Notes under the pieces: model-generated
Seen by the model: only the letters and a program-made list of their open reading frames with translations
Database searches by the model: none
Told to the model about the DNA's origin: nothing
Translations under genes and position numbers: made by a program
Shown: positions 4,092 through 54,200 of the stretch, piece by piece
Layout of the letters: every line of letters starts with the position of its first letter
How positions within the stretch are numbered: position 1 is the first letter of the stretch
Assembly: GCF_051622035.1 (NCBI RefSeq)
Contig: NC_135360.1
Location: 4,402,001-4,466,000 of the forward strand
From: Arctopsyche grandis
Lineage: Eukaryota; Arthropoda; Insecta; Trichoptera; Hydropsychidae
Direction of reading: 5' to 3'
DNA length: 64,000 nucleotides

Positions 4092-4903
4092 CTTAGGGCG
4101 AAAACACACTGAGTGGTATGCAGTGGCAGCTCGTCCACATGGACTGCGGGCTGCAGCCTCCCAGTACAGTACAAATTCATGCAATTTTTGTCGTCCACAT
4201 GGGCTGCAGGCTGCAGACCTCCCAGTATAGTACACGTGTATGCTATTTTTTGTTTTCATTCGATCACCGGTTTGGTTAACGAGCTACTACTACCTAATTA
4301 ATCTCTGCAGCCCCCCCCCCCACTGCAAACCAAGGACACATGACGTCCCATACCACCAGTGGTGGCTCGTGAGATTTCGTAGTGGGGGGGGGCTGCAGAG
4401 ATTATTCAGGCTGTAGTAGCTCGTTAACCAATCCGGTGATCGAATGAAAACAAAAATAGCTTGGATATGTACTATACTGGGAGGTCTGCAGCCCCGCAGC
4501 CCACGTGGATGGCAAAAATAGCATGCATTTGTACTGTACTGGGAGGTCTGCAGCCCCGAAGCCCATGTGGATGACAAAAATAGCATGCATTTGTACTGTA
4601 CTGGGAGGACTGCAGCCCCGCAGCCCATACGGACGAGCCGCCATTGGTGTAGTTGCACGTGCAGAATGCATATGTTTGGGAGGTAGCACGTGTATGCATA
4701 TCCACATGCAACCGACAAGTTTCTCCTACATTTCTTCAAATATGGGATTCACTGTTAGCGATCACTGTCAAGCAAGGATACAATATCACCGAAAACACTC
4801 CAGGGGGTGATTTTTAGCTAGGGGTGCTGCGTTTTTTTCACATGTTTCAAAGTATATAAAAAAAAAAACACGTACCACTCAGTGTGTTTTCGTCCTTAAT
4901 AAC
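4092..4903. mobile_element. Non-autonomous DNA transposon with TIRs and large internal palindrome
   Basis: The ends are inverted repeats: GGGCGAAAACACACTGAGTG on the left (from about 4096) and its complement CACTCAGTGTGTTTTCGTCC on the right (to about 4898), both next to TTA/TTAA. No transposase is present. Inside, 4150-4305 is inversely repeated in 4395-4630, giving a long potential stem around a 90-bp centre containing a C run and a G run. Related right ends occur at 50690-51005, 58950-59250 and 62650-62855. The superfamily is not clear to me. Confidence 0.7.
4469..4655 (+). repeat. Three 62-bp tandem units inside the TIR element
   Basis: GTACTRTACTGGGAGG starts at 4469, 4531 and 4593, giving an exact 62-bp spacing. 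Each unit also carries CTGCAGCCCCG and AAAAATAGCATGC. The inverted left arm of the same element holds divergent copies. Confidence 0.8.
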
Positions 4904-11500: not shown

Positions 11501-14500
11501 CAATACAGCAGGGATGTAAATATTCTTCCAGTATAATTTCATTGCATACTTCACTGACTTTCATAGAAGCCATCATTTTTTCTACCAATATGTTCGCTTG
11601 TTGATGAAAAATATTACAATAGCTTTCCACGGCTTTGGTGGCTAACGTCGGCATGATGAGCTTACGATGCGCCTTCCATGTTGGTCCTAATCAATTAAAA
11701 ATCCAGAATTAAACCCGGAATATACGAGTATATTAAATATAATAGCGCTATTCTGTGTGTGTTTCAGTGTGAGATAACGCTCGTCGTACTATAATAGTCG
11801 TTTCAATTCGACATATTTAAAAACACTGCCAACTAAACGAACTTCGATTGCTAATTGTACACACTTTACAATTAGCAATCAAAGATTAACGATTCCGATT
11901 TAAATGTAATTATATGTGAAGCTCGCGAGTTGGTTAAAAATTTAAGAATCCCTTTTCTTATTGTGAAATTTAACGAAAATGATACTAAAAGACCTGTAAT
12001 AGACCGTATTACTAGATGGAATAGCACATTCGATATGTTGACTTCTTTATTGTTATGTAAATAATTTTGTTCAAAAATAGCTGAAAACAATATGGAGTAC
12101 TGTTTCCCAGAACATAAATGGATCGAAATTCATGTCATCGTTGAGGGATGCGGTGCAAACGATCGTAACGTAAAATTGTAGTCTGCTATAGCACTATCCG
12201 CGTAGCCACTGGTGGTACACGCCGGGTTGAATGTGTTAATAAACAGGAATTATAGCAATGTTGTAATGAGGCTTCCATAGGATTTCCTTTTTTAAATACT
12301 TTTTGACAGCTAAAAGTTTCATACAACACCTGTTGTCGCATGAAATAATTTGTGTATGAACAAACTAGTAAGTTCGTGAACGAACCGGAGTGAACACTCG
12401 GACTGTAACACATTAGTGAAAGTATAATATCATTAAAACATAGTCATCTTACATTGAAAGCACTCGTTGCATTATATTTGGAAAGAATTCGTACGTTTAG
12501 TTTGCATATACCTACTAGTAAATCAGATATATGTAATTATTTACCGATGGGGTGCAAACGATCGACAAGCGCCAGACAGACTGAAGCACAGATTAACGAC
12601 ACGTGTACCTTATGCGTGCGCACTGCTCGCACTTACACTAAGCGAAATCTACCCGAAGTCCCGACACACCTACCCTGTATACGTTCTGTGCTTCTGATAC
12701 TTTAGTTCCGAATTTTGCCTTATTAAACTCGCCAGAAAGATCCTACTCAATTTTAATAATTACCATTTTAATAATTGCATCTGTGCACCGATCGAAAGGT
12801 TACTCGTCATCTGATGTGCAATCTATCATTCGTGAAGTCGAGAATTGCGTTTAAAGCAGCCATCCAGTTAATCTGTGGTTCAGTCTGTCTGGCGCTTGTC
12901 GATCGTTTGCACCAAACCCATTGGCAGGATTTCTTAAAATTTACTTTGGTAACTAGCATTGAATTGTTACCGTGGGTTGCTTTCTTTTGGAAAACGGGTC
13001 ATTTCGACGTCCGGGATACGTTACCTAAAAATGGGACGGTCCCGTTTAAAACGGGACGTATGGTCACATTAACCATAACACATGCGATGATATTTAACCA
13101 TAACACTAGTATTAAATATTCTTGCCGATGATACATATGTACATAACTTCAAAACTGAAATTATATATTTGACATCTAGTCTAATATACATATGTATATG
13201 TAATTTCGAAAGGGACTTTGTATGTAAGTAAATATTGTTGGTTGGAAAGTGTTTGGGAACTTCAAAAACAAGGCAAAATTTCCATGACGACATGGGGACG
13301 GGCAATGCCGGTTTTAGGGGGGGCGGCTGGGTCGGGCGGCACCCGAGGGCGCCAAATAAGTTAGGGCGCCGAACGATGTGCCAAAGGCGCTTTAAAATTA
13401 AAAATTAGAGAACCAAAAGCCATTCAAAATTTTAGATTAGAGCGCCAAAGGCGAAAGTTCTTTCTAAGGGTGTTTAGAAAAAATTGCCCGAGGGCGCCAT
13501 CGGGTATAAGGCCGGCACTGGGGACGGGGGACGAGGGGCGCTGGGGGCGAAGGGCACCGGGGGAGCCGCCGGATTCTGGTATAATATATACATAATACAT
13601 CTATTCAATCCGGGTTCAATCCCATGAGCTGACCTCGATTGAAAATAAATTTTCTGAGTATATCTGTAGTGCTGCTGGTCAGACCTGGATATTTGTGACT
13701 CCAGGTCGATCGTTTCCTATCAGAGTTTGCCAATTTTCTCTGATTTAATTGTTGAAACGGTTCCCAGTAAAATTGGCTAAATATCCTTCCCATCTACTAT
13801 GTCACCACTATTTGAGATTGATTAATGTACAATAATATTTCTGTACAATTCATAGATGTCTCGTTAATTTGCGAGTTTTTCAGTGTCTCGTAATTCAGCG
13901 ACTTGTATAATAAAAAAAATGCTGCAATGTTTGTAACTGGCCAGGAAGGTTCATTGGGGTTACCTGTAAGGCCTTCCTGGTATATATGTAAAAAAATAAA
14001 TAAATCTAGTATATAATTTCGAAAGAGACTTTGTAAGTTTGTTGGTTGGAAATCGAAAACAAATCAGTTTCTATGACTTCTTGATGTTCATTATTTATAA
14101 TACTGATAGTGTTTTTAAGTAATAAAAAAAAATTGCTTAAAATCCGACAACCGGAAGTGGAACTTTTGTCTTGTGCAAGTTTCCATACATTTGCGCTCAA
14201 TTTGTATCAAAAAGTCATAGCTATTAGTATTTCATAATGCTGCCGGTATGTGTGAATGTGTCTGTACGGTTCAATATCGAATTTTTTTTGTGACTTTCTT
14301 ATATTCCTCAAATACACAGATAAAGTCATGGGTTGGTCACACCCGACTTTTTTTTTCGATTCAAATAAATTTAATAAAAAAAACAAATGAATATTTACTA
14401 TTAGATTCGCCATGTTTAAGCTGTTTATATTACAAATACTGAGTGAAGCCGGGTAAAACAACTAGTCTAATAAATAATTTCGAAAGAGACTTTGTATGTT

Positions 14501-15977
14501 TCGTAAAATCCGTGACGTCATCGAACAAATAAATATTCAAATAAATTTAAATAAAATAAAACTATTCAAATAAATGTAATAGAATGTTTACTATTATATT
14601 GGCCATGTTTAAGCGTTTTATATTAAAAATACTGAGTGAAGCCGGTTAAAACACACTAGTATTTAAATAAACATAACATACCTGATCCTGTTATTAAACC
14701 CTCACCAATGAATGGCTTAGCAAAATCCATAAGCGAGTCTTTTTCGATCATCTTCGTCGATTGTAAAATTCTCTGCGAAAAGAGTTACGTATCCTGTATG
14801 ATATGGATAAGTAAATTTGTATGATTTGTAAAGATAATATTCATTGATTTATACTTCAAGATGCTGAGGCTCCCTGATGAGGACGATCAACTTTGGTCCC
14901 AACCACATTTTTATCACCGGCTGTGGAAAATCTTTCAGCATCTTCCTCAGCCTGCTGAATATTTCTGTAATATCGTTAAATACATCTAATATATATTTAC
15001 GAAAGAGACTTAATATATAAGGTTTGGTTGGGAGCATCGAAAACATATCAAATTTTCGGTGCCACTTTAGTAAGCGGTCTACCTTAGCATGCGATCTACA
15101 TTTGAATCGCAGTCGACTATTTTTTTTTATTTGTATCTTAGCAACGACCTGTTTATTATATTTTATGTTTTTTATAGGGCCAACCCCAATTTAAACTAAC
15201 CTAACCTGAACCTTAAATAAATAGGCTGTTAAGATATCTTTTTTTTTTAAGTTTTATTTCATCAACAACCCTAACTTAACCTTACCTAACCTGACCCTTT
15301 AATAAATAGGTGTTGGCTGCTAAGATATCTTTTTTTTTAAGTTTTATTTCATCAACATTTTCACAAAAAAAAAAACATCTTAGCAGCCAACACCTATTTA
15401 TTTAAGGGTCAGGTTAGGTTAGGTTAGGTAAGGGTTGGCCCTATTCATTTAAGATTACGTTGTTAGGGACGGTATTATTCAGTCTCGCTGTCACACGTGA
15501 GAACTGAGACAGTGAGACCGCATATTAAAGTAAAAACGTGAAGGTAGATCGCATACTAAAGTATATATGTATGTACATATGTGAAAGTAGACCGCATACT
15601 ACAGTGGTACCAAATTTTCTATGACGACGATATCGACATCGTTGAATATTATTTTTTATTCGATTCAAATAAATTTAATAAAAAAACAAATGACTGTTTA
15701 CTATTAGATTTCGCCATGTTTAAGCTGTTTATATTACAAATACCGGGTGGAGCCGGGTAAAATCACTAGTTTCATATAAATATTGAACTTTTGCAATTAA
15801 ATGAAATGCTGACTGACCTTCTCTACGACATATGAATCGATAGGTGCATCCCAGGGGAAAAACGTTGAAAGGTCCGGGCAACTGGGATGCCCACAAATTT
15901 AGTTTCACAGTTTGAGCGCCATATTTTACAAGTAGATATCCCAGAACTGCGCAAATTGCCAGTATTTGCAGTATCAT
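6957..15977 (-). CDS. Cytochrome P450, clan 4 (CYP4-like), complete in ten exons
   Basis: Haem-thiolate monooxygenase, expected in the endoplasmic reticulum membrane. Exons in gene order: 15977-15818, 14985-14855, 14772-14682, 11686-11489, 11419-11223, 9307-9083, 7831-7763, 7636-7465, 7390-7211, 7126-6957. All have GT-AG borders, phases agree, and the total is 1593 nt or 530 aa plus stop, a usual P450 length. Landmarks: N-terminal membrane anchor (residues 1-17), LPGP hinge (33-36), C-helix WKAHR (131-135), I-helix ASSDTI (334-339), K-helix ETIR (392-395), haem loop FSSGLRVCIG (466-475) with Cys473. The CYP4-type SRPQYAYVPFSSG stretch places it in clan 4. The I-helix lacks the usual Gly and has Ala where CYP4 enzymes often have the Glu that can bond haem. 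Introns 1, 3, 5 and 6 carry many transposons. The substrate cannot be read from the sequence, and I do not assign a subfamily. Confidence 0.93.
7890..8157 (+). repeat. Dispersed repeat in P450 intron, copy 1
   Basis: Matches 63640-63912 nearly base for base, from TACTACCGCCATCTATGT through ATGGCGGAGGATCCATTTAC to GTAAAGGAGGTATGTAATA. In the other copy the block has inverted ends (AACATACCTC on the left, GAGGTATGT on the right), so it is probably a non-autonomous DNA element. Confidence 0.7.
8488..9026 (-). mobile_element. TTAA-flanked AGGGCTG element, copy 1
   Basis: A 539-bp element flanked by TTAA (8484-8487 and 9027-9030) with inverted ends TAGGGCTG and CAGCCCTC. It is homologous in opposite orientation to 21366-21855. 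It contains a TA microsatellite at 8540-8590. The TTAA duplication suggests piggyBac-type mobility. It lies in P450 intron 6. Confidence 0.8.
9363..11182. mobile_element. Probable hAT-like element in P450 intron 5
   Basis: Inverted ends CAGGGGCGGCTC (9363) and GAGCCGCCACTG (ending 11182). The 8-bp flanks TGCATACA and TACATACG agree at six of eight positions, compatible with a decayed hAT target duplication. No transposase frame was recognised inside; a copy of a second element (10153-10530) is nested in it. The boundaries rest on the ends alone. Confidence 0.45.
10153..10530. mobile_element. Degenerate copy of the GGGTCTACCTCAC hAT-like element
   Basis: Shares with 48851-49228 the left end GGGTCTAACTCACGG, the GGCAAAGATCGAAAATCGAA block and the inner GTGCGCGCGCAGGATACGG / CCTGCTCCCGCAAATTAAGT block, in which the order is inverted. 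The right end is eroded. Confidence 0.5.
12172..12921 (+). repeat. Duplicated 0.7-kb segment, copy 2
   Basis: Partner of 5877-6603, located in P450 intron 3. It retains the better-preserved MITE copy at 12551-12913. Confidence 0.8.
12551..12913. mobile_element. MITE with 47-bp TIRs, copy 2
   Basis: The left end GGTGCAAACGATCGACAAGC continues to ACAGATTAAC; the right end is its complement with one mismatch over about 47 bp. A further single end occurs at about 12151 (GGTGCAAACGATCG). No target duplication is clear. Confidence 0.8.
13180..13585 (+). mobile_element. Helitron-like family 1, 3'-truncated copy with GC-rich seed
   Basis: The 5' end TCTAATATAC followed by TAATTTCGAAAGGGACTTTG matches the other family 1 elements. 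A short GC-rich segment of G-runs follows (about 13285-13575), interrupted by a separate small element at 13303-13520. No CTAG end is visible before the SINE that starts near 13610, so the copy is truncated. Confidence 0.6.
13303..13520. mobile_element. Short hAT-like element with 8-bp TSD
   Basis: A 218-bp element with ends CAATGCCGG and CCGGCACTG, flanked on both sides by an exact 8-bp duplication GGGACGGG (13295-13302 and 13521-13528). An 8-bp duplication with CA..TG ends is typical of hAT insertion. It interrupts the GC-rich segment of the Helitron-like copy. Confidence 0.8.
13610..14004 (+). mobile_element. tRNA-derived SINE, head-truncated copy
   Basis: Starts at a B-box-like GGGTTCAATCCC (13612-13623), continues through the family body (GCTGCTGGTCAGACCTGGAT, GTTGAAACGGTTCCCAGTA, ATGTCACCACTATTTGAG) and ends with an A-rich tail before 14005. 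The same body occurs at 16826-17063, 31668-32018, 33890-34432, 42650-42908 and 48488-49420. Confidence 0.8.
14005..14465 (+). mobile_element. Helitron-like family 1 element, first of a head-to-tail pair
   Basis: 5' end TCTAGTATATAATTTCGAAA after a host A, with GAGACTTTGTAAG following; 3' end GAAGCCGGGTAAAACAACTAG. It has TC..CTAG termini, no target duplication and no coding sequence. It lies in P450 intron 3 and abuts the next element without any intervening base. Confidence 0.75.
14466..14659 (+). mobile_element. Helitron-like family 1 element, second of a head-to-tail pair
   Basis: A 194-bp copy starting TCTAATAAATAATTTCGAAA directly after the CTAG of its neighbour and ending GCCGGTTAAAACACACTAG before a host T. 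It ends only 22 bp from the donor site of P450 exon 3. Confidence 0.75.
14985..15769 (+). mobile_element. Helitron-like family 1 element filling P450 intron 1
   Basis: 5' end TCTAATATATATTTACGAAA (host A at 14984), 3' end AGCCGGGTAAAATCACTAG (host T at 15770). The 5' terminal bases, read on the minus strand as TTAGA, coincide with the acceptor of P450 exon 2 (AG at 14987-14986). The element carries an internal inverted repeat with TTAGG units. Confidence 0.75.
15175..15438. repeat. Inverted repeat with short TTAGG (telomere-type) arrays
   Basis: Two tandem copies of a segment containing CTAACCTAACCTGA and GGTGTTGGCTGCTAAGATAT are followed by an inverted copy with GGTTAGGTTAGGTTAGGTAA (about 15415-15434). 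The latter is four TTAGG units, the canonical insect telomere repeat. Confidence 0.75.
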
Positions 15978-17063: not shown

Positions 17064-17163
17064 TAAATGTAATCAAAATAAGTATTTTATATATATTTTT
17101 AAATTAAAAAGTATTTTTACCTTTTTTTAATTTCATACATTATATTCAAAATAATTTTAATTG

Positions 17164-17904
17164 TATGTCCATATACATACTTCGCTGGTTGAGCGAGCTC
17201 GGTGTCGTGTTGAGACAGAGAGTAATGTGCTTGGCCTCCAGATAAACCGCCCCAAAACAAAAATTATGATAATTGACCGTCACCAACAGCTGCAAAACAA
17301 CAACTCAGCTTTAAACGGTATAGAGGTGGTCGATAATTTTGTCTATCTGGGGTCACTCATATCTAACAACGGCGGCAGCGAATTGGAAATACGGCGCCGG
17401 ATTACATTAGCAAAATCGGCAATGTCACAACTAACGAAGATTTGGAAGAATAGAGCCATTACAACTGCTGTCAAAATCCATCTCGTGAAGAGTCTCGTTT
17501 TTTCTGTCTGCCTTTATGGTGTCGAGACGTGGACCATGAAGGCGGCGGATAGACGGAGAATCGATGCCTTCGAGATGTGGTCCTGGAGACGGCTATTGCG
17601 CGTGCCTTGGACCGACAAACGCACGAATGTGTCTATTCTTGAAGAATTAAAAATCAAGGATAGACTGTCAACAATATGCCTGAAACATATATTGCAGTTC
17701 TTCGGCCACATTGCACGAAGAGGTGAGGAGAGCCTGGAGCGGTTGGTTGTGATTGGTAGCGTCGAAGGCAGAAGAGCCAGAGGCAGATCCCCCGCACGCT
17801 GGACTGACCAAGTATCTGCAGCGACGGGCGCTTCCACGGTAGCAAGTCTTCGCCTGGCCGAATTTAGAACTGAATGGAGGCAGCTGGTTGACCGGACATC
17901 ATAG
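17164..17904 (+). pseudogene. RTE-type LINE reverse transcriptase, 5'-truncated fragment
   Basis: An open frame of about 247 codons, ending at TAG 17904, encodes the region after the catalytic core of an RTE-like reverse transcriptase: YLGSLISNNGG, RRRITLAKSAM, SVCLYGVETWTM, the WSWRRLLRVPWTDKRTN block, FFGHIARRG and RGRSPARWTDQV. The catalytic DD motif and the endonuclease are absent. The 3' sequence CACGATCCTCAGTGATGAGG and a terminal AATAATAATAAG repeat fit the usual RTE 3' end, so this is a 5'-truncated insertion. Confidence 0.85.
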
Positions 17905-18893: not shown

Positions 18894-19292
18894 CTAGTGG
18901 TTTTACCCGGCTTTACTCAGTATTTGTAATATAAACCGCTTAATCTTATAGTAAACATTTTATTAAATTTATTTGAATAGTTTTATTTTATATAAATTAA
19001 TTTGAATGATGTTTTTTTTATTAAATTGACTATCACGAACAAACAAACATATATACTCGAAATTATATGTATATCAGAATCCGCCCCCCCCCCCCCATTA
19101 CCTTCTCCCCCGGGGACTTCGCCTCCAGGGACTTCACCCCCGGGGCTTTCGAATCGTTTGAACCGAAAAAACATCGAATCGGCACCGATGAATCGAAAAA
19201 AAATCGAATGTGTTGTTTACGAACCAACCAACCAATTTTACATACATATATGCATAAATATAAATACAAAGTCTTTTTCGAAATTATATATG
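18894..19292 (-). mobile_element. Helitron-like family 1 element with unexpanded GC-rich segment
   Basis: The 3' end lies on the left (CTAGTGGTTTTACCCGGCTT) and the 5' end on the right (AAAGTCTTTTTCGAAATTAT, decayed TC). Bases 19082-19150 are a short C/G-rich segment with CCCCCGGGGACTTCGCCTCC in the position occupied by long GC-rich arrays in the copies at 35983 and 38376. The sequence between that segment and the 5' end (CGATTTTTTTTCGATTCATCGG on the minus strand) also matches those copies. Confidence 0.75.
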
Positions 19293-20330
19293 CCCTTAGT
19301 GATGTTCCTGTTTACTACTAATTGATACTATTACAGTGTTTTAGTGGCCAATAGCTGTGTGACGGCCAACAACTGTAACGCTAATCCTACCCGTTTTCTA
19401 TATGTATTATCAATTACTAGTGTTGTGCCCGATTAAATAGAATAGCATTGGTGTTGGCATATTAAGTTATTAAATAAAAAAAAAATTAAAAGAAATGTGT
19501 CGGTCCCGTGTTTGATCCGCACGCGGTCGATTTTTTTTCAAATACCTTTAAAAAATGGTAAAAAAATCTACCTACCTACATATAAGCAATATACATAAAA
19601 TACAAATAGTTAAATTAATTAATTAAATAAATTTTCAATAGATGGCCGTAAATGCACAGATACTTAGCGGCGTCTATTTGCCTAGAGGAAACATTGGTAG
19701 TGTTACGTATACTAAAAAGAGCCCCCGAGTAATTGCGATCGGATTAGGCCGGGTAGCGTCCTGAGAGACCGTAAGACCGGTGTAAGTGGTTTTAAAGATT
19801 AGCGACAAGCTAAGTGCATGAAAGTTAAACAATGATTGCACTTCTCATACCGTGGGAATACATATCCGAATACGTGACTATACAGTAGGTAAACAGATTA
19901 GACGTCCTGAGAGATCTACCCCTTATAAGGCGGTACGTAGGCGATATCATGTCATTCTGGACTGAGCAGTGACAGTGCGTGTATCTCCTTAATCATCAAT
20001 AAATGCTGTGAAACGACTGTTGGCCTTTTACTTAGACCCTCCACCCACCCCTACGCAACAGTAGCAAACAGTATATATATATATATAAGTTTTTTTATTT
20101 TGTTATTATATTCGTGCGTATTGTTGGCAGTGGTTTAGCTGTGACGTACATATGTATGTCTAATCGAAACGACTATTATAGTACGGTGTGCGTTATCGCA
20201 GACACACATACACACACAGAATATCGCTATTATATATATTCAATGTTTAACGCACATCGGCGCTCTTCAGGTCCATGGACATGTCGGCAAAACGCCGATC
20301 GGCATTGAAAGGGTTAATAATAACAATATT
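19293..20330 (+). repeat. Dispersed repeat R, copy interrupted by a solo LTR
   Basis: Matches 25510-26260 and, in part, 63403-64000. Shared landmarks are AGTGATGTTCCTGTTTACTA, GTGGCCAATAGCT, ACTAGTGTTG.GCCCGAT, GTGTCGGTCCCGTG and AACATTGGTAGCAAACA, the last split by the LTR at 19701-20060. It includes a B-box-like GTTTGATCC but no convincing A box, so its class is open. Confidence 0.75.
19701..20060 (+). mobile_element. Solo LTR, 360 bp, with 4-bp target duplication
   Basis: Begins TGTTACGTATAC and ends CTACGCAACA, so TGTT..AACA short inverted ends. GTAG flanks both sides (19697-19700 and 20061-20064). The uninterrupted repeat at 25926-25955 reads AACATTGGTAGCAAACA with one GTAG, proving the insertion. 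Inside are a TATA-like CTTATAAGG (about 19921-19929) and AATAAATGCTGTG near 20000. No internal retrotransposon region remains, as expected after LTR-LTR recombination. Confidence 0.9.
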
Positions 20331-35982: not shown

Positions 35983-36157
35983 TCTAATCTATAATTTGGA
36001 AAGAGACTTTGTATGTAAATATCCTTGGTCGTCGTCGTCGTCGTCTTCGTCGTCGTCGTCGTCGTCCGTAGATCGGTGACGTCATCGAACACGTGATTCG
36101 ATTTTTTTTTTTTTTCGATCCATGGGCGCCGATTTGTTTTTTTCGATTCAATGGATT

Positions 36158-37080
36158 CACCCCCGCGGGGGCGCAAAGCGAGTAGTTTCATGGGGCCCCG
36201 CCAGGGGCGCCACAAGGGGCGCAGCCCCGTGGGGCTCAAAAGGGGGCGCCACAAGGGGCGCAGCCCAGTGGGGCCCCGAAGGGGGCCCGGGGGGCCCAGC
36301 CTCATGGGGCGCAGCCCCATGGGGCTCAAAAGGGGGCGCCACAAGGGGCGCAGCCCCGTGGGGCCCAGCCTCATGGGGCGCAGCCCCATGGGGCTCAAAA
36401 GGGGGCGCCACAAGGGGCACAGCCCCGTGGGGCCCCGAAGGGGGCCCGGGGGGCCCAGCCTCATGGGGCGCAGCCTCATGAGGCTCAAAAGGGGGCGCCA
36501 CAAGGGGCGCAGCCCCGTGGGGCCCCGAAGGGGGCCCGGGGGGCCCAGCCTCATGGGGCGCAGCCCCATGGGGCTCAAAAGGGGGCGCCACAAGGGGCGC
36601 AGCCCCGTGGGGCCCCGAAGGGGGCCCGGGGGGCCCAGCCTCATGGGGCGCAGCCCCATGGGGCTCAAAAGGGGGCGCCACGAGGGGCGCAGCCCCGTGG
36701 GGCCCCGGGGGGGCCCAGCCTCATGGGGCGCAGCCCCATGGGGCTCAAAAGGGGGCGCCACAAGGGGCGCAGCCCCGTGGGGCCCCGAAGGGGGCCCGGG
36801 GGGCCCAGCCTCATGGGGCGCAGCCCCATGGGGCTCAAAAGGGGGCGCCACAAGGGGCGCAGCCCCGTGGGGGCCCGGGGGGCCTAGCCTCATGGGGCGC
36901 AGCCCCATGGGGCTCAAAAGGGGGTGCCACAAGGGGCGCAGCCCCGTGAAGCCCCGAAGGGGGCGCGGGGGGCCCAGCCTCATGGGGCGTAGCCCCATGG
37001 GGCTCAAAAGGGGGCGCCACAAGGGGCGCAGCCCCGTGGGGCCCCGTAGGGGGCCCGGGGGGCCCAGCCTCATGGGGCGC
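36158..37080 (+). repeat. GC-rich minisatellite, 90-bp unit (array A, copy 1)
   Basis: About ten units starting CAGCCTCATGGGGCGCAG, most spaced exactly 90 bp (for example 36546 and 36636), a few shortened. Units include GGCGCCACAAGGGGCGCAGC and GGGCCCGGGGGGCCC. Ninety is a multiple of three and the unit has no stops in several frames, which creates long open frames on both strands. Confidence 0.95.
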
Positions 37081-37920
37081 AAGCCCTAATAGGCATTAAC
37101 TAAGGGGGGCGAAGCCCTAGACGGCAATTAATCATGGGGGCGCGGAGGGGCGAAGCCCTAAAAGGCAACTGATCATGGGGGCGAAGCCTTAGACGGCATT
37201 TAATCATGGGGGCGCGGAGGGGCGAAGCCCTAAAAGGCATTAACTAAGGGGGGCGAAGCCCTAAACGGCAATTAATCTTGGGGGCGCGGGGGGCGAAGCC
37301 CTAAAAGGCAACTGATCATGGGGGCGAAGCCTTAGACGGCATTTAATCATGGGGGCGCGGAGGGGCGAAGCCCTAAAAGGCATTAACTAAGGGGGGCGAA
37401 GCCCTAAACGGCAATTAATCTTGGGGGCGCGGGGGGCGAAGCCCTAAAAGGCAACTGATCATGGGGGCGAAGCCTTAGACGGCATTTAATCATGGGGGCG
37501 CGGAGGGGCGAAGCCCTAAAAGGCATTAACTAAGGGGGGCGAAGCCCTAAACGGCAATTAATCTTGGGGGCGTGGGGGGCGAAGCCCTAAAAGGCAACTG
37601 ATCATGGGAGCGAAGCCTTAGACGGCATTTAATCATGGGGGCGCGGAGGGGCGAAGCCCTAAAAGGCATTAACTAAGGGGGGCGAAGCCCTAAACGGCAA
37701 TTAATCTTGGGGGCGCGGGGGGCGAAGCCCTAAAAGGCATTAACTAGGGGGGGCGAAGCCCTAGACGGCATTTAATCATGGGGGTGCGGAGGGGCGAAGC
37801 CCTAAAAGGCATTAACTAAGGGGGGCGAAGCCCTAAACGGCAATTGCTCATGGGGCGTGGAGGGGCGAAGCCCTAGAAGGCAAAGGCTCAGGGGGGCGCC
37901 GAGGGCGAAGCCCTAGAAGG
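37081..37920 (+). repeat. GC-rich minisatellite, 143-bp unit (array B, copy 1)
   Basis: GGCATTAACTAAGGGGGGCG recurs at 37236, 37379 and 37522, a 143-bp period. The unit is itself built from about four diverged 36-bp sub-units ending GCGAAGCCCTAAAAGGCA. The phrase GCGAAGCC also occurs in the element's 3' end (GAGCGAAGCCGGG), hinting that the array grew from the terminus. Confidence 0.95.
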
Positions 37921-38118
37921 CAAAAAAAAATTTTGATTTTTTTTTTTTGATTTTTTAAAAAATTTTTTTTGATTTTTTTTTTTATTTTTTTTTTTATTTT
38001 TTTTTTTTTGATTTTTTTTTTATTTTTTTTTTATTTTTTTTTTTGATTTTTTTTTATTTTTTTTTTATTTTTTTTTTTAAATTTTTTAATTTTTTTTTAA
38101 TTTTTTTTTTTTTTTAAT
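37921..38118 (+). repeat. T-rich tract (copy 1)
   Basis: About 200 bp of T runs broken by GA or A, placed between array B and the element's conserved 3' end. Confidence 0.9.
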
Positions 38119-38187
38119 TAAATTAGCTTAGTCATGTTTAAGCGGTTTATATTATAAACACTGAGCGAAGCCGGGTAATACAGCTAG

Positions 38188-38375
38188 TATATACTATACT
38201 TGTTATAAACTTGTATACTGAATATAAATATATGATCCTTTTAAAAAACCCAATCGAATTTCCAAAGACCGGGATACTGGTTATATACTTTCTCGCGTCC
38301 TAAATTGGTGACCTCGTCAAAGAACATCACACCTTCGCTGCAATGTAAAGGACCAAAGTAATAATAATATCGCTA
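38188..38375. other. 188-bp spacer between the two GC-rich elements
   Basis: Unique AT-rich sequence without repeats of the array type; shows that the two elements are separate insertions or were separated after duplication. Confidence 0.6.
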
Positions 38376-38552
38376 TCTAATCTATAATTTGGAAAGAGAC
38401 TTTGTATGTAAATATCCTTGGTCGTCGTCGTCGTCGTCTTCGTCGTCTTCGTCGTCTTCGTCCGTAGATCGGTGACGTCATCGAACACGTGATTCGATTT
38501 TTTTTTTTTTTCGATCCATGGGCGCCGATTTTTTTTTTCGTTTCAATGGATT

Positions 38553-39595
38553 CACCCCCGCGGGGGCGCAAGGCGAGTAGCTTCATGGGGCCCCGCCAGG
38601 GGCGCCACAAGGGGCGCAGCCCCGTGGGGCCCCAGCCTCATGGGGCGCAGCCCCATGGGGATCAAAAGGGGGCGCCACAAGGGGCGCAGCCCCGTGGGGC
38701 CCAGCCTCATGGGGCGCAGCCCCATGGGGCTCAAAAGGGGGTGCCACAAGGGGCGCAGCCCCGTGAAGCCCCGAAGGGGGCGCGGGGGGCCCAGCCTCAT
38801 GGGGCGCAGCCCCATGGGGCTCAAAAGGGGGCGCCACAAGGGGCGCAGCCCCGTGGGGCCCCGTGGGGCCCCGAAGGGGGCCCGGGGGGCCCAGCCTCAT
38901 GGGGCGCAGCCCCATGAGGCTCAAAAGGGGGCGCCACAAGGGGCGCAGCCCCGTGGGGCCCCGAAGGGGGCCCGGGGGGCCCAGCCTCATGGGGCGCAGC
39001 CCCATGGGGCTCAAAAGGGGGCGCCACAAGGGGCGCAGCCCCGTGGGGCCCCGAAGGGGGCCCGGGGGGCTCAGCCTCATGGGGCGCAGCCCCATGGGGC
39101 TCAAAAGGGGGTGCCACAAGGGGCGCAGCCCCGTGAGGCCCCGAAGGGGGCGCGGGGGGCCCAGCCTCATGGGGCGCAGCCCCATGGGGCTCAAAAAGGG
39201 GCGCCACAAGGGGCGCAGCCCCGTGGGGCCCCGAAGGGGGCCCGGGGGGCTCAGCCTCATGGGGCGCAGCCCCATGGGGCTCAAAAGGGGGTGCAGCCCC
39301 GTGGGGCCCCGAAGGGGGCCCGGGGGGCCCAGCCTCATGGGGCGCAGCCCCATGGGGCTCAAAAGGGGGCGCCACAAGGGGCCCAGCCCCGTGGGGCCCC
39401 GAAGGGGGCCCGGGGGGCCCAGCCTCATGGGGCGCAGCCCCATGGGGCTCAAAAGGGGGCGCCACAAGGGGCGCAGCCCCGTGGAGCCCCGAAGGGGGCC
39501 CGGGGGGCCCAGCCTCATGGGGCGCAGCCCCATGGGGCTCAAAAGGGGGCGCCACAAGGGGCGCAGCCCCGTGGGGCCCAGCCTCATGGGGCGCA
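38553..39595 (+). repeat. GC-rich minisatellite, 90-bp unit (array A, copy 2)
   Basis: About twelve units of the same 90-bp sequence as copy 1, with some shared variants (for example GGGGGTGCCAC and CGTGAAGCCCC), showing that the arrays are related by descent and not just by convergence. Confidence 0.95.
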
Positions 39596-40435
39596 AGCCC
39601 TAATAGGCATTAACTAAGGGGGGCGAAGCCCTAGACGGCAATTAATCATGGGGGCGCGGAGGGGCGAAGCCCTAAAAGGCAACTGATCATGGGGGCGAAG
39701 CCTTAGACGGCATTTAATCATGGGGGCGCGGAGGGGCGAAGCCCTAAAAGGCATTAACTAAGGGGGGCGAAGCCCTAAACGGCAATTAATCTTGGGGGCG
39801 CGGGGGGCGAAGCCCTAAAAGGCAACTGATCATGGGGGCGAAGCCTTAGACGGCATTTAATCATGGGGGCGCGGAGGGGCGAAGCCCTAAAAGGCATTAA
39901 CTAAGGGGGGCGAAGCCCTAAACGGCAATTAATCTTGGGGGCGCGGGGGGCGAAGCCCTAAAAGGCAACTGATCATGGGGGCGAAGCCTTAGACGGCATT
40001 TAATCATGGGGGCGCGGAGGGGCGAAGCCCTAAAAGGCATTAACTAAGGGGGGCGAAGCCCTAAACGGCAATTAATCTTGGGGGCGCGGGGGGCGAAGCC
40101 CTAAAAGGCAACTGATCATGGGGGCGAAGCCTTAGACGGCATTTAATCATGGGGGCGCGGAGGGGCGAAGCCCTAAAAGGCATTAACTAAGGGGGGCGAA
40201 GCCCTAAACGGCAATTAATCTTGGGGGCGCGGGGGGCGAAGCCCTAAAAGGCATTAACTAAGGGGGGCGAAGCCCTAGACGGCATTTAATCATGGGGGTG
40301 CGGAGGGGCGAAGCCCTAAAAGGCATTAACTAAGGGGGGCGAAGCCCTAAACGGCAATTGCTCATGGGGCGTGGAGGGGCGAAGCCCTAGAAGGCAAAGG
40401 CTCAGGGGGGCGCCGAGGGCGAAGCCCTAGAAGGC
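39596..40435 (+). repeat. GC-rich minisatellite, 143-bp unit (array B, copy 2)
   Basis: Same order of unit variants as array B of copy 1, ending in the identical AAAGGCTCAGGGGGGCGCCG segment. Confidence 0.95.
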
Positions 40436-40674
40436 AAAAAAAAATTTTGATTTTTTTTTTTTGATTTTTTAAAAAATTTTTTTTTAATTTTTTTATTATT
40501 TTTTTTAATTTTTTTTTTAATTTTTTTTTTTGATTTTTTTTTTATTTTTTTTTTATTTTTTTTTTTAATTTTTAAATTTTTTTTTAATTTTTTTTTTTTT
40601 TTAATTAAATTAGCTTAGTCATGTTTAAGCGGTTTATATTATAAACACTGAGCGAAGCCGGGTAATACAGCTAG

Positions 40675-51200: not shown

Positions 51201-54200
51201 GATGGACTTGGTGTAATCTTCTCGTAGATGGAAACTTTTGATTGGAAATCATAATTGGCGACGGCAACTAATCGAATTTGGCGGAGGCAAATTAAGTTAA
51301 ATTCAATATCGCACAAAATGGCGAGTTTTCGTCGCCCGTGTAGCTCTCCTGTGCATTTCGTAAAATAATAAAATCATTTCATAATTGCATTAAATTCTCA
51401 ATTAAAATTATCATTACAGTAGATCTAATATAAGCTGGGATCGAAAAAATTAAACGATTATGATCTCGAAGATGGACACTTAAATTTAAATTTATATAGT
51501 TTGTATGTTAATTAAATGTATATGTTTAATCAAAGTGCTTACTTCTGTTCGTCCATGAGCATACTAGTTTGTTCATACATGAACTATTGGTTTTATTGCA
51601 GGTGCTAACAGTCAAAAGCTATCTGACCTGGCGTCACATATAACTTTTCGCTGTCAAAACCTTTGAGTTTTTAATGGGAAATCTTACGGAAACCGCATTA
51701 TAACGTTGCTATAATTCCCATTTCCACTAATATTAAAAATACTGCAGCCCATACATACATTGAGGATGGAAAAAACGATTGATACTTAAACTAATAATAG
51801 TTCATCATAAACAAAAGCTAGTTCGCTTGTCAATTTTATTATTTTTTGTACACTATGACTGGCCAGGTTGATTCGTATATGAACTATGTTTACAAACGAA
51901 TCAAAATGAACTTGGACTGTCACATATTTGTATGTATTTTTTCTAGATAAATAAAACCAAACAATATAAATCACGGGTGTAGGCAGGGGGGCTATGGGGA
52001 CTATATTAAAAAATATTGCATATTTAGAAATATAACATAAAATCAAATTTACCTCGGGTGAAATTCTTTTCAATAAATAGACACTTAAAGAAGTATGAAA
52101 ACGTAAACTTGTTTTTGATAATTCGCAATATAAATCATAAACGCTTTGTATAAATCCGTATAAAAGAACCGCAGTAGTATTTTTTTTTTTTGGAAAAAAT
52201 AACATGATTAATAAATTTGATAATTTGAGAATTTACTGTATTTATATTCATTTTAAATGTGCCGAAGATCATGCAACTAATATGTATGTATGTAATAATG
52301 TTCTACTCTAGTTCTTCCCAAATTCTAGGAACAAAAAACAGCTCATAGCAAGTTTATTTTTTTCTTTTGAAAAAAAAAACGCTTGGATGGGGGGGGGGGT
52401 TAATCTGCGTTTCAGCCCCCCCCCCTCCTAAAAAATACTGGTATCATTTAGATTCTTTTCGCGCACCGATCTTTGATTATTTGTCCTTTTTGCCAAACTA
52501 TATATGTGACTGTTTCCAATACCTAATAGTTTTACGACTTCTTTGGAATTCTCCATATTATTGGAGCATCTGTTTGTCTAGTTATTTCCATTCTTTCTTT
52601 ACCGAGATTAAGGAATAAATTAAATTTTTATATTTTAGACTATATCTAATCCTGAGTTGAATCCATTTTTAATTGATATATGTATTATACAATATATATG
52701 TGTGTGTACGAATAGCAGTGGAGATTCGGAATTAATCGAGAAGCTTTTAAATTGTAAGCTGTCAGTGGCGTGAGTAATTAGGCGAGCGGCTGCCGAGATT
52801 AATTAAATCGCGAGCCGCCCCTGTTTCAATGGAGGACGATGACAGAAGTCCTTCAGCCGCATCAATAAAAATCAATTCGCTCGTATGCTATTTAAACACA
52901 TACATACATAGATGTATTATACGGGTGTATTGATTGAGCATCCCTGCCCATGTGGAAAGATAGGAGGGTAAAGTTAGTACGTATCGTGAAAATAAAAATG
53001 CAAAATTATTTAAAATAGAGTAAATAAAAAGTAGTGCGCGAACGCTACTGAATTTATACGGCGCAAGAGATCGGGCCGAAACAATATCTTTTATGGGCAG
53101 GTCGGAATATAAAACAGCTCTCGAAAATCCAATACAATTCGAAAGCAATTCTGCTATCTGGATTTATCTAAAATAAAGTTCGTTTGACGATTTCATGTTG
53201 CCCGTTGGTGAATGTGCGTATTCGGTGATTGTGTTTTTTATGTTTCCGATTTGGAAGCGTTTTCAGCTACATAACGAGCTCGTTATATACCGTGCAAATT
53301 TTAGTAGATAAATACGCAAGCACCAAACCTAAAAAGTAAAAACCGTGAGTATTTGTTGTCGTTGACAAATATTATTCGGGAATGGGTTCATAAACCGAAT
53401 TTAGTTGGCCATAATGTGACTTGTCATGGCACTATGGCATAGACACGACAAACACATTCATATCTTACGCCTGCAAGCTTCACTGAAATTTAAATCGCAG
53501 CTGTACTTTATTGTTTTACACGCCCTAAAAAACTTGACCCTTAAAGCCCTCAACATGAGGCCACCCCCCCCCCCCCCCAACGAACACAGTCTAAGATACC
53601 CTTTTGTCATAGAGTTATTTTATTTATCGGCAATATCAATTATTATAACCAACCTGGAAATTATTGCTTATTACTTGAGTAATACTTATGTGGACGCAAA
53701 TTCAGAGTCACTCATGAGGAGGCATACACAGCCACTGCAGGAGTACCGCAGGGAAACGTGATAGAACCTATCCTGTACCTGATATACACTGCTGACATCC
53801 CAACAAGCAACGAGACATTCATTGAAACATTTGCCGATGACATGGTCATTATGTCATCGAGCGAGTCTCAAGTGGAGGCAGTTGAACGCTTGCAGCATGC
53901 ATTAAACAAAATCAACAAATTGACCAAGGATTGGGAGATAGAACTATACGAGCTTAAATCAATCCAAGTCACATTTACACTGCGACGAAATGATATGAAC
54001 TTTCAGACTTTCATCAGCGGGGTACAAATTCCAAAGGCTAATTCAGAAAAATATTTAGGACTGCATCTCGACTCAATGCTACACGCTACACGGAGGCATC
54101 ATATCAAGAAAAAAATAGACCATATTCGAATCAAACAGAGATAGATGTACTGGTTAATAAAAAGACACTCTAAATTAGAGAAAATAAGAATATACCAGGA

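Follow-up and report, generated by a model that had tools for sequence, protein, structure and literature searches.

Two adjacent copies of a non-autonomous Helitron family that carries GC-rich tandem arrays in Arctopsyche grandis

Two array-bearing elements in the window

The DNA analysed here, a 64,000-nt stretch of the Arctopsyche grandis contig NC_135360.1 (hereafter the window), contains two neighbouring GC-rich elements, copies A and B. They are same-strand, independent insertions of one non-autonomous canonical Helitron family, and each carries two consecutive tandem arrays with units of 90 bp and 143 bp. Coordinates are positions in the window; C1, C3, C4 and C13 are contig labels and names beginning with L are sampled loci. 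The features, with the basis of each in brackets, are as follows (TRF, Tandem Repeats Finder).

35983..38187, + strand: copy A, a complete non-autonomous element, TC...CTAG, between A and T (termini, self-comparison, match to L013_1)
35983..36200, + strand: copy A, 5′ terminal region, TCTAATCTATAATTTGGAAAGAGACTTTGTATG..., with a GTC microsatellite, a T-rich part and GGATTC (genome-wide exact copies; aligns with an older related family)
36209..37073, + strand: copy A, 90-bp array; subunits of ~39 and ~51 bp, with one GGGGCGCAGCCCC hairpin in most (TRF, subunit split)
37074..37914, + strand: copy A, array junction within a hairpin motif (GGGGCGCAAGCCC), then the 143-bp array (TRF; 744 exact junctions genome-wide); subunits of 31, 40, 31 and 41 bp, each with a GCGAAGCC hairpin core (subunit split)
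37921..38115, + strand: copy A, T-rich tract (TRF, sequence reading)
38116..38187, + strand: copy A, 3′ terminal region ending in GAGCGAAGCCGGGTAATACAGCTAG (sequence comparison)
38188..38375, no strand: spacer of 188 bp belonging to neither copy (self-comparison)
38376..40674, + strand: copy B, a complete element, TC...CTAG, between A and T (termini, self-comparison, relatives L014_1 and L062_1)
38599..39587, + strand: copy B, 90-bp array, with gains and losses of whole units relative to A (TRF, unit strings)
39588..40428, + strand: copy B, 143-bp array, co-linear with that of A (TRF, unit strings)
40435..40600, + strand: copy B, T-rich tract (TRF, sequence reading)

The 3′ region of copy B likewise terminates in GAGCGAAGCCGGGTAATACAGCTAG, and the GTC microsatellite is present in the 5′ region of both copies. 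The array elements with TC and CTAG ends described in a first-pass annotation of this DNA are thus real, with exact ends, both arrays and a T-rich tract in A and in B. Their GC content, which that annotation placed far above an AT-rich background, is 0.59 in A and 0.61 in B, compared with 0.352 in the window outside both. The window contains 97 occurrences of the heptamer GCGNAGC, where 9.6 would be expected (100 dinucleotide shuffles, largest value 21); 88 of the 97 lie inside A and B, every one on the + strand.

End-to-end alignment of A with B shows 32 substitutions and 219 gap columns. Unit variants are common to the arrays of both copies and their order is preserved, which bears out the proposal that both arrays descend from one array. 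The difference in length lies in the 90-bp arrays and amounts to whole subunits; TRF places the 143-bp arrays at 37074-37898 in A and 39588-40412 in B, of equal length, and the 90-bp arrays at ~36209-37086 and 38599-39587. Similarity between A and B begins and ends within a few bases of the termini, and the spacer and outer flanks are unrelated; the flanks have therefore not been duplicated, and the copies represent two insertions. Assembly of GC-rich repeats is difficult and A and B adjoin each other on one strand, which could be taken to favour an assembly artefact or one local segmental duplication including the flanks. However, similarity stops at the termini, the two copies have different nearest relatives at other loci (an element on C3 for A, elements on C4 and C1 for B, within the compared set) and many contigs carry the same structure, so that such an explanation is scarcely credible. 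Between copy B and its relatives there are 35 substitutions and 112 gap columns for L014_1 (C4), and 6 substitutions and 169 gap columns for L062_1 (C1).

G-quadruplex potential, suggested in the first-pass annotation, was dropped as a reading: 35 bases of B and none of A fall within the strict motif (four runs of at least 3 G, loops of 1-7). Long open frames within the arrays were taken as a product of composition, being open in several frames and on both strands. Rfam and transfer RNA scans of the window returned nothing, and viral-contig pattern scans gave no match.

The family, its ends and its place among Helitrons

The genome searched comprises 475.7 Mb in 189 contigs. Exact-sequence searches gave genome-wide totals, with positions listed for the first ~100 places per search. 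The first 25 bases of the element have 977 exact copies (reversed control, 0) and the junction of the 90-bp and 143-bp arrays has 744 (control, 0). Among the matches listed, a same-strand 5′ end lies no more than 3.5 kb upstream of 73 of 77 junctions (in one case at 3,490 bp), for the 27 Mb of C1 spanned by the 100 listed 5′ ends. In this listing, arrays are thus found mainly inside elements with these ends, contrary to the possibility that they occur mostly without TC and CTAG termini. The median length of 33 measured elements is 2.1 kb; 977 copies of this length would amount to ~2 Mb, as an estimate only. Scattered through an AT-rich genome, several hundred GC-rich islands are explained as copies of one mobile element.

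Two samples of loci were read. The first consists of 20 loci of 7 kb. They are the best 20 of the 40 places scored against the 5′ end of copy A, the window excluded; the sample was thus selected by similarity, and 31 array elements from it were compared together with A and B. The later sample, selected for stacking, adds three more clusters on C1 and the upstream portion of a cluster sampled before. Allowing one substitution in the first 25 bases, the window and these 24 loci contain 49 5′ ends. Twenty-five of them directly follow CTAG; an A precedes 21 of the other 24, and of the remaining three, those at L027 and L064 begin 2 and 5 bases after CTAG and that at L061 has a C before it. The same DNA contains 47 exact 3′ ends; a T follows each of the 16 that have no abutting element. 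The 5′ TC and 3′ CTRR ends, together with insertion between A and T without target duplication (as judged from the flanking bases), are those of canonical Helitrons, and by ends and target the family is a canonical Helitron. Its members would move by a rolling-circle mechanism.

The arrays move with the element, since copy A matches L013_1 on C3 over 2.2 kb with 0 substitutions (23 gap columns). Four other pairs at different sites are likewise near-identical through both arrays: L024_1/L025_1 (0 substitutions, 10 gap columns), L009_1/L010_1 (1 and 1), L015_1/L016_1 (1 and 0) and L023_1/L026_1 (3 and 0). In L012_2 and L017_1 the order of arrays is 90-143-90-143, as though two arrays had recombined. 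At locus L064, two long elements lie side by side and include numerous unlisted subunit variants; they may be a divergent subfamily.

Published systems, cited here from excerpts, place the family as a striking variant of a known transposon type. It shares 5′ TC, 3′ CTAG, a target between A and T and a hairpin-like sequence near the 3′ end with canonical Helitron1 elements such as lepidopteran Hel-2 and the autonomous Helraiser (PMC4778049). Hel-2, with TC and CTAG ends, contains a microsatellite and internal tandem repeats (PMC4344730). Unlike Hel-2 and Helraiser, the present elements contain ~0.5-3 kb of two consecutive GC-rich mini-hairpin arrays and are ~60 % GC. Dispersed arrays of central tandem repeats are also known from Helentron-associated HINE elements, DINE-1 of Drosophila and Cg_HINE of oyster, exceptionally with two repeat clusters in consecutive order, as here (PMC4067079, PMC7492417). 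Those elements have subterminal inverted repeats and a T-rich or TT target, in contrast to the TC and CTAG ends and the A and T target found here; of the Helentron/HINE features considered, central tandem repeats are present and the T-rich or TT target is not. The family spreads arrays as HINEs do, yet by target and ends it is not a HINE member. The first-pass remark that arrays of this size and composition are unusual for such a Helitron agrees with the literature searched, to the extent of its excerpts: mini-hairpin arrays this large in a Helitron with TC and CTAG ends were not encountered there, most subscription journals lying outside the search.

Two loci with replication-type genes may be noted beside the family. 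One (L034/L045, C13:5356500 to ~5364200) encodes Rep and helicase, with endonuclease-like and Ulp1-type protease-like frames recognized by eye; it is Helentron-like, and a Pfam scan of its first two frames gave DUF6570 and Helitron_like_N. At the other (G000:C3:20695959-20738225), RepHel-like matches, some containing stop codons, recur up to four times at a spacing of exactly 9,032 bp, a tandem of a decayed autonomous-type element.

Hairpin units and the origin of the arrays

The GCGNAGC core is the centre of most subunits, as GGGGCGCAGCCCC in the 90-bp array and GGGGCGAAGCC in the 143-bp array, and the junction of the two arrays also falls within a hairpin motif. As DNA, GCGNAGC is described as an unusually stable mini-hairpin, and work by Hirao and Yoshizawa is cited for d(GCGNAGC) structures with GNA loops and at least 2 G-C pairs, GCGAAGC melting at temperatures as high as 78 °C (PMC4686876). 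The seven-base core is the same; there it was studied in oligonucleotides, whereas here it is the repeat unit of a transposon. In 34 elements (one being the 224-bp L017_3) the motif occurs 1,380 times forward and 0 times in reverse, and in ten further elements 378 times forward and once in reverse, giving 1,758 against 1 over all 44. Because tandem units share orientation, these counts represent few independent events, not thousands.

Variation along the units was compared in 34 distinct arrays of each kind, drawn from 43 elements, with masks rotated along the unit. In the 90-bp unit, column variation is 0.9 % within the hairpin and 2.5 % elsewhere (rotated masks as low, 1 of 89); in the 143-bp unit the values are 2.5 % and 6.9 % (4 of 142). 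The 90-bp unit folds better than shuffled sequences on both strands (z -2.9 and -2.3).

A related family bears on the origin of such arrays. A first look yielded 969 candidates, and the 40 scored comprise the query and 39 places at 76-87 % identity. Its ends are probably older than those of the array family, because identity among their copies is lower. The 5′ start of this family resembles that of copy A, and at the position aligned to the start of the arrays there is a 15-bp GC-rich repeat with a GCGAAG core. One member lies in the window.

18894..19293, − strand: older-family member with three 15-bp GC-rich hairpin units, a degenerate internal second 5′-end-like sequence and a degraded 5′ TC of its own (TRF, alignment)

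Twelve sampled copies have one to seven 15-bp units, counted by eye, and in their first 480 bases GCGAAG occurs 27 times forward and once in reverse, the terminal motif included. After the repeat, all 12 copies contain a second 5′-end-like sequence, compared with 0 of 2,400 base-shuffled loci, so these copies look like fused head-to-tail dimers. The same search found no second 5′ end in the array family itself. A minisatellite with the same core at the aligned position favours growth in place over capture, and the arrays most likely grew within the element from a short GC-rich repeat. Hairpin units range from one in the older relatives to about eighty in the longest of the elements read, a series that offers a view of how a transposon grows satellite-like arrays within itself.

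The first-pass annotation had instead proposed minisatellites captured by Helitrons, twice. In such a scheme a host minisatellite would have been acquired by read-through past the 3′ end and carried from then on. Read-through capture has been shown for Helraiser (PMC4778049), and four of the 77 listed junctions have no exact 5′ end upstream, which would suit it. One of those four, however, sits 464 bp upstream of the junction of an abutting element at 20957924, and the older family has the same hairpin core at the aligned position, which speaks against the word ‘captured’. The single junction type at 744 exact places speaks likewise against capture and against two separate events. In-place growth is the better supported, and capture appears quite improbable. 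A DNA search with the 90-bp unit returned no match, common words being skipped by that search.

A further possibility begins with a head-to-tail dimer that lost the CTAG of its inner end: the 3′ terminal hairpin at that end (GCGAAGCCGGG) would have seeded the minisatellite, and the large arrays would descend from it. In 12 of 12 sampled relatives the GC-rich repeat stands directly before a second 5′-end-like sequence, the place expected for an inner 3′ end, and the GCGAAG core and its strand are the same. Against this, the 143-bp unit aligns to the 3′ end no better than shuffles do (388 of 1,000 as good for the array family, 76 of 1,000 for a relative), and a second 5′ end is absent from the array family. 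Because of the alignment result, a derivation of the array unit from the 3′ end was rejected and the idea retained as a rival only, possible but on the unlikely side.

Stacking, proposed mechanism and other repeats of the window

Family elements are frequently stacked head to tail. There are 166 exact CAGCTAG/TCTAATC... junctions in the genome, a number equal to 17 % of that of exact 5′ ends (977). Within 5 kb, a same-strand neighbour is present for 44 of the 100 listed 5′ ends and an opposite-strand one for 2, with ~2 % expected; 20 of 28 same-strand neighbour pairs abut exactly. With exact matching, a family element is directly followed by a related older 5′ end ten times and directly preceded by a related older 3′ end twice, the genome offering 4,864 and 5,151 such ends, respectively. 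With at most one mismatch, the 5′ side gave 33 rows, of which 12 ending in TTTGG and 2 beginning with GTAAAACAGCTAG were set aside, leaving 19; the 3′ side gave 8 rows, of which 4 with TCTAATATATAATTTGG were set aside, leaving 4, or 3 without one further-changed row. One-sided binomial p values for upstream against downstream are 0.015 for the exact rows, 0.0003-0.0008 for the rows kept and 0.00003 for all rows, for patterns chosen after a few such junctions had been seen in fetched loci. Composites moved as a unit could inflate these counts.

Stacks probably arise by insertion of new elements beside residents. Alternatively, they could be rolling-circle multimers or could have formed when copies or circles recombined. 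Exact TC/CTAG junctions are known in circles of Helraiser, and tandem arrays have been cited from plants and bats (PMC4778049, PMC5876387); in addition, L061_2 and L061_3 are each other’s nearest relative, and the [90][143][90][143] arrays of L012_2 and L017_1 would fit. Yet 11 adjacent pairs are no more similar than all pairs (median identity 0.978 against 0.983; gap columns 674 against 542.5), and among six more adjacent pairs in the later clusters that one alone is mutual-nearest. L024_1 and L025_1 are nearly the same element, yet their downstream arrays differ, as do their upstream tails (last 500 bases), and young elements adjoin unlike older ones. Multimers were rejected as the general origin of stacks, the one mutual-nearest pair opposing this, and such an account of the stacks is rather unlikely. 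A rule that the 5′-most element of a stack is the youngest is not claimed: the first loci had been selected because one element in each resembles copy A, and at L014 the upstream partial copy deviates from the usual 3′ end sequence.

Head-to-tail copies are likewise known from tandem Helitrons of plants, bats and the fungi Fusarium and Metarhizium; for the fungi, insertion of a copy at another’s 5′ end, or close to it, has been considered, and the 5′ hairpins of FoHeli1 and FoHeli2 have a GAA loop (PMC5148889). Unlike in those systems, the stacks here amount to 166 exact CTAG/TC junctions against 977 exact 5′ ends, with neighbours that mostly differ. With so many stacks, it can be asked whether the nick sites of resident copies are targets for incoming Helitrons.

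Taken together, a recently active non-autonomous Helitron family in which the arrays are resident, and have grown from an ancestral mini-hairpin minisatellite, is very probable. A rolling-circle (RepHel) transposase acting in trans would mobilize its members, whose arrays are resident parts of the family and not cargo acquired at this locus. The ancestor would have held a short GC-rich minisatellite with a GAA mini-hairpin as its unit (GGGGGCGAAGKCCCC; DNA core GC-GNA-G), and this would have expanded into the 90-bp and 143-bp arrays, the mini-hairpins lying on one strand, mostly one per subunit. Whole subunits may be gained or lost by slippage or unequal exchange, favoured by hairpins in the displaced strand, and growth and shrinkage of this kind would explain the differences in array length. 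Hairpins presumably form in the cell. The array has been copied nearly unchanged in recent rounds, and new elements would land beside resident family elements, producing the exact CTAG/TC stacks.

Several results weigh against parts of this reading. As noted, four of 77 listed junctions have no exact 5′ end upstream. Canonical Helitrons have a 16-20 nt palindrome ~11 bp from the 3′ end; the 3′ end of the array family has a GC-GAA-GC core with a weak DNA fold (-0.5 kcal/mol), and the 3′ hairpin of a relative (-2.7 kcal/mol) is matched by 37 of 200 shuffles. Profile searches of the genome gave 16 matches to Helitron_like_N and 22 to PIF1, several being copies of one repeated locus. Around the 16 Helitron_like_N matches, with flanks partly read, no RepHel gene with the ends of the family was found, and the stretches read are broken or Helentron-like. 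Half of the 143-bp unit (71 nt) folds no better than shuffles (z 0.79 and 0.5); with the 90-bp unit folding on both strands and this half on neither, no strand-specific claim is made from the energies. The 143-bp and 90-bp units give no alignment clearly above chance (54 of 500 shuffles do as well); the case for one origin of both arrays therefore rests on the shared hairpin and the junction. Lower variability of the hairpin need not mean selection, since hairpin and other columns differ in base make-up; base composition and homogenization could contribute.

A more elaborate combination would treat the arrays as multiplied GAA terminator hairpins, seeded by a dimer and forming a strand-specific track, with the nick at a 5′ end as landing site. 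The hairpin track on the mobilized strand might then affect where rolling-circle transfer pauses or ends, and a transposase nick at a resident 5′ end might take up new copies, so that elements stack just upstream of resident ones, as in the ten upstream against two downstream exact junctions. In combination these proposals are unlikely.

Short relatives and other repeats are also present in the window.

13180..13590, + strand: related element with a GGGGGCGAAGGGC-like stretch, 3′ end not recognized (self-comparison, ends)
14005..14465, + strand: short related element lacking an array, its CTAG abutting the next element (self-comparison, ends)
14466..14659, + strand: short related element, its TC directly after the preceding CTAG (ends)
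14985..15769, + strand: short related element, its ends of the same type (self-comparison, ends)

Apart from the family, a 24-bp minisatellite of ~15 copies occupies 647-1007, and 61/62-bp repeats in both orientations form a long imperfect inverted arrangement at 4121-4650. Frames resembling fragments of non-long-terminal-repeat reverse transcriptases were recognized by eye at 17161-17904 and 53683-54144.

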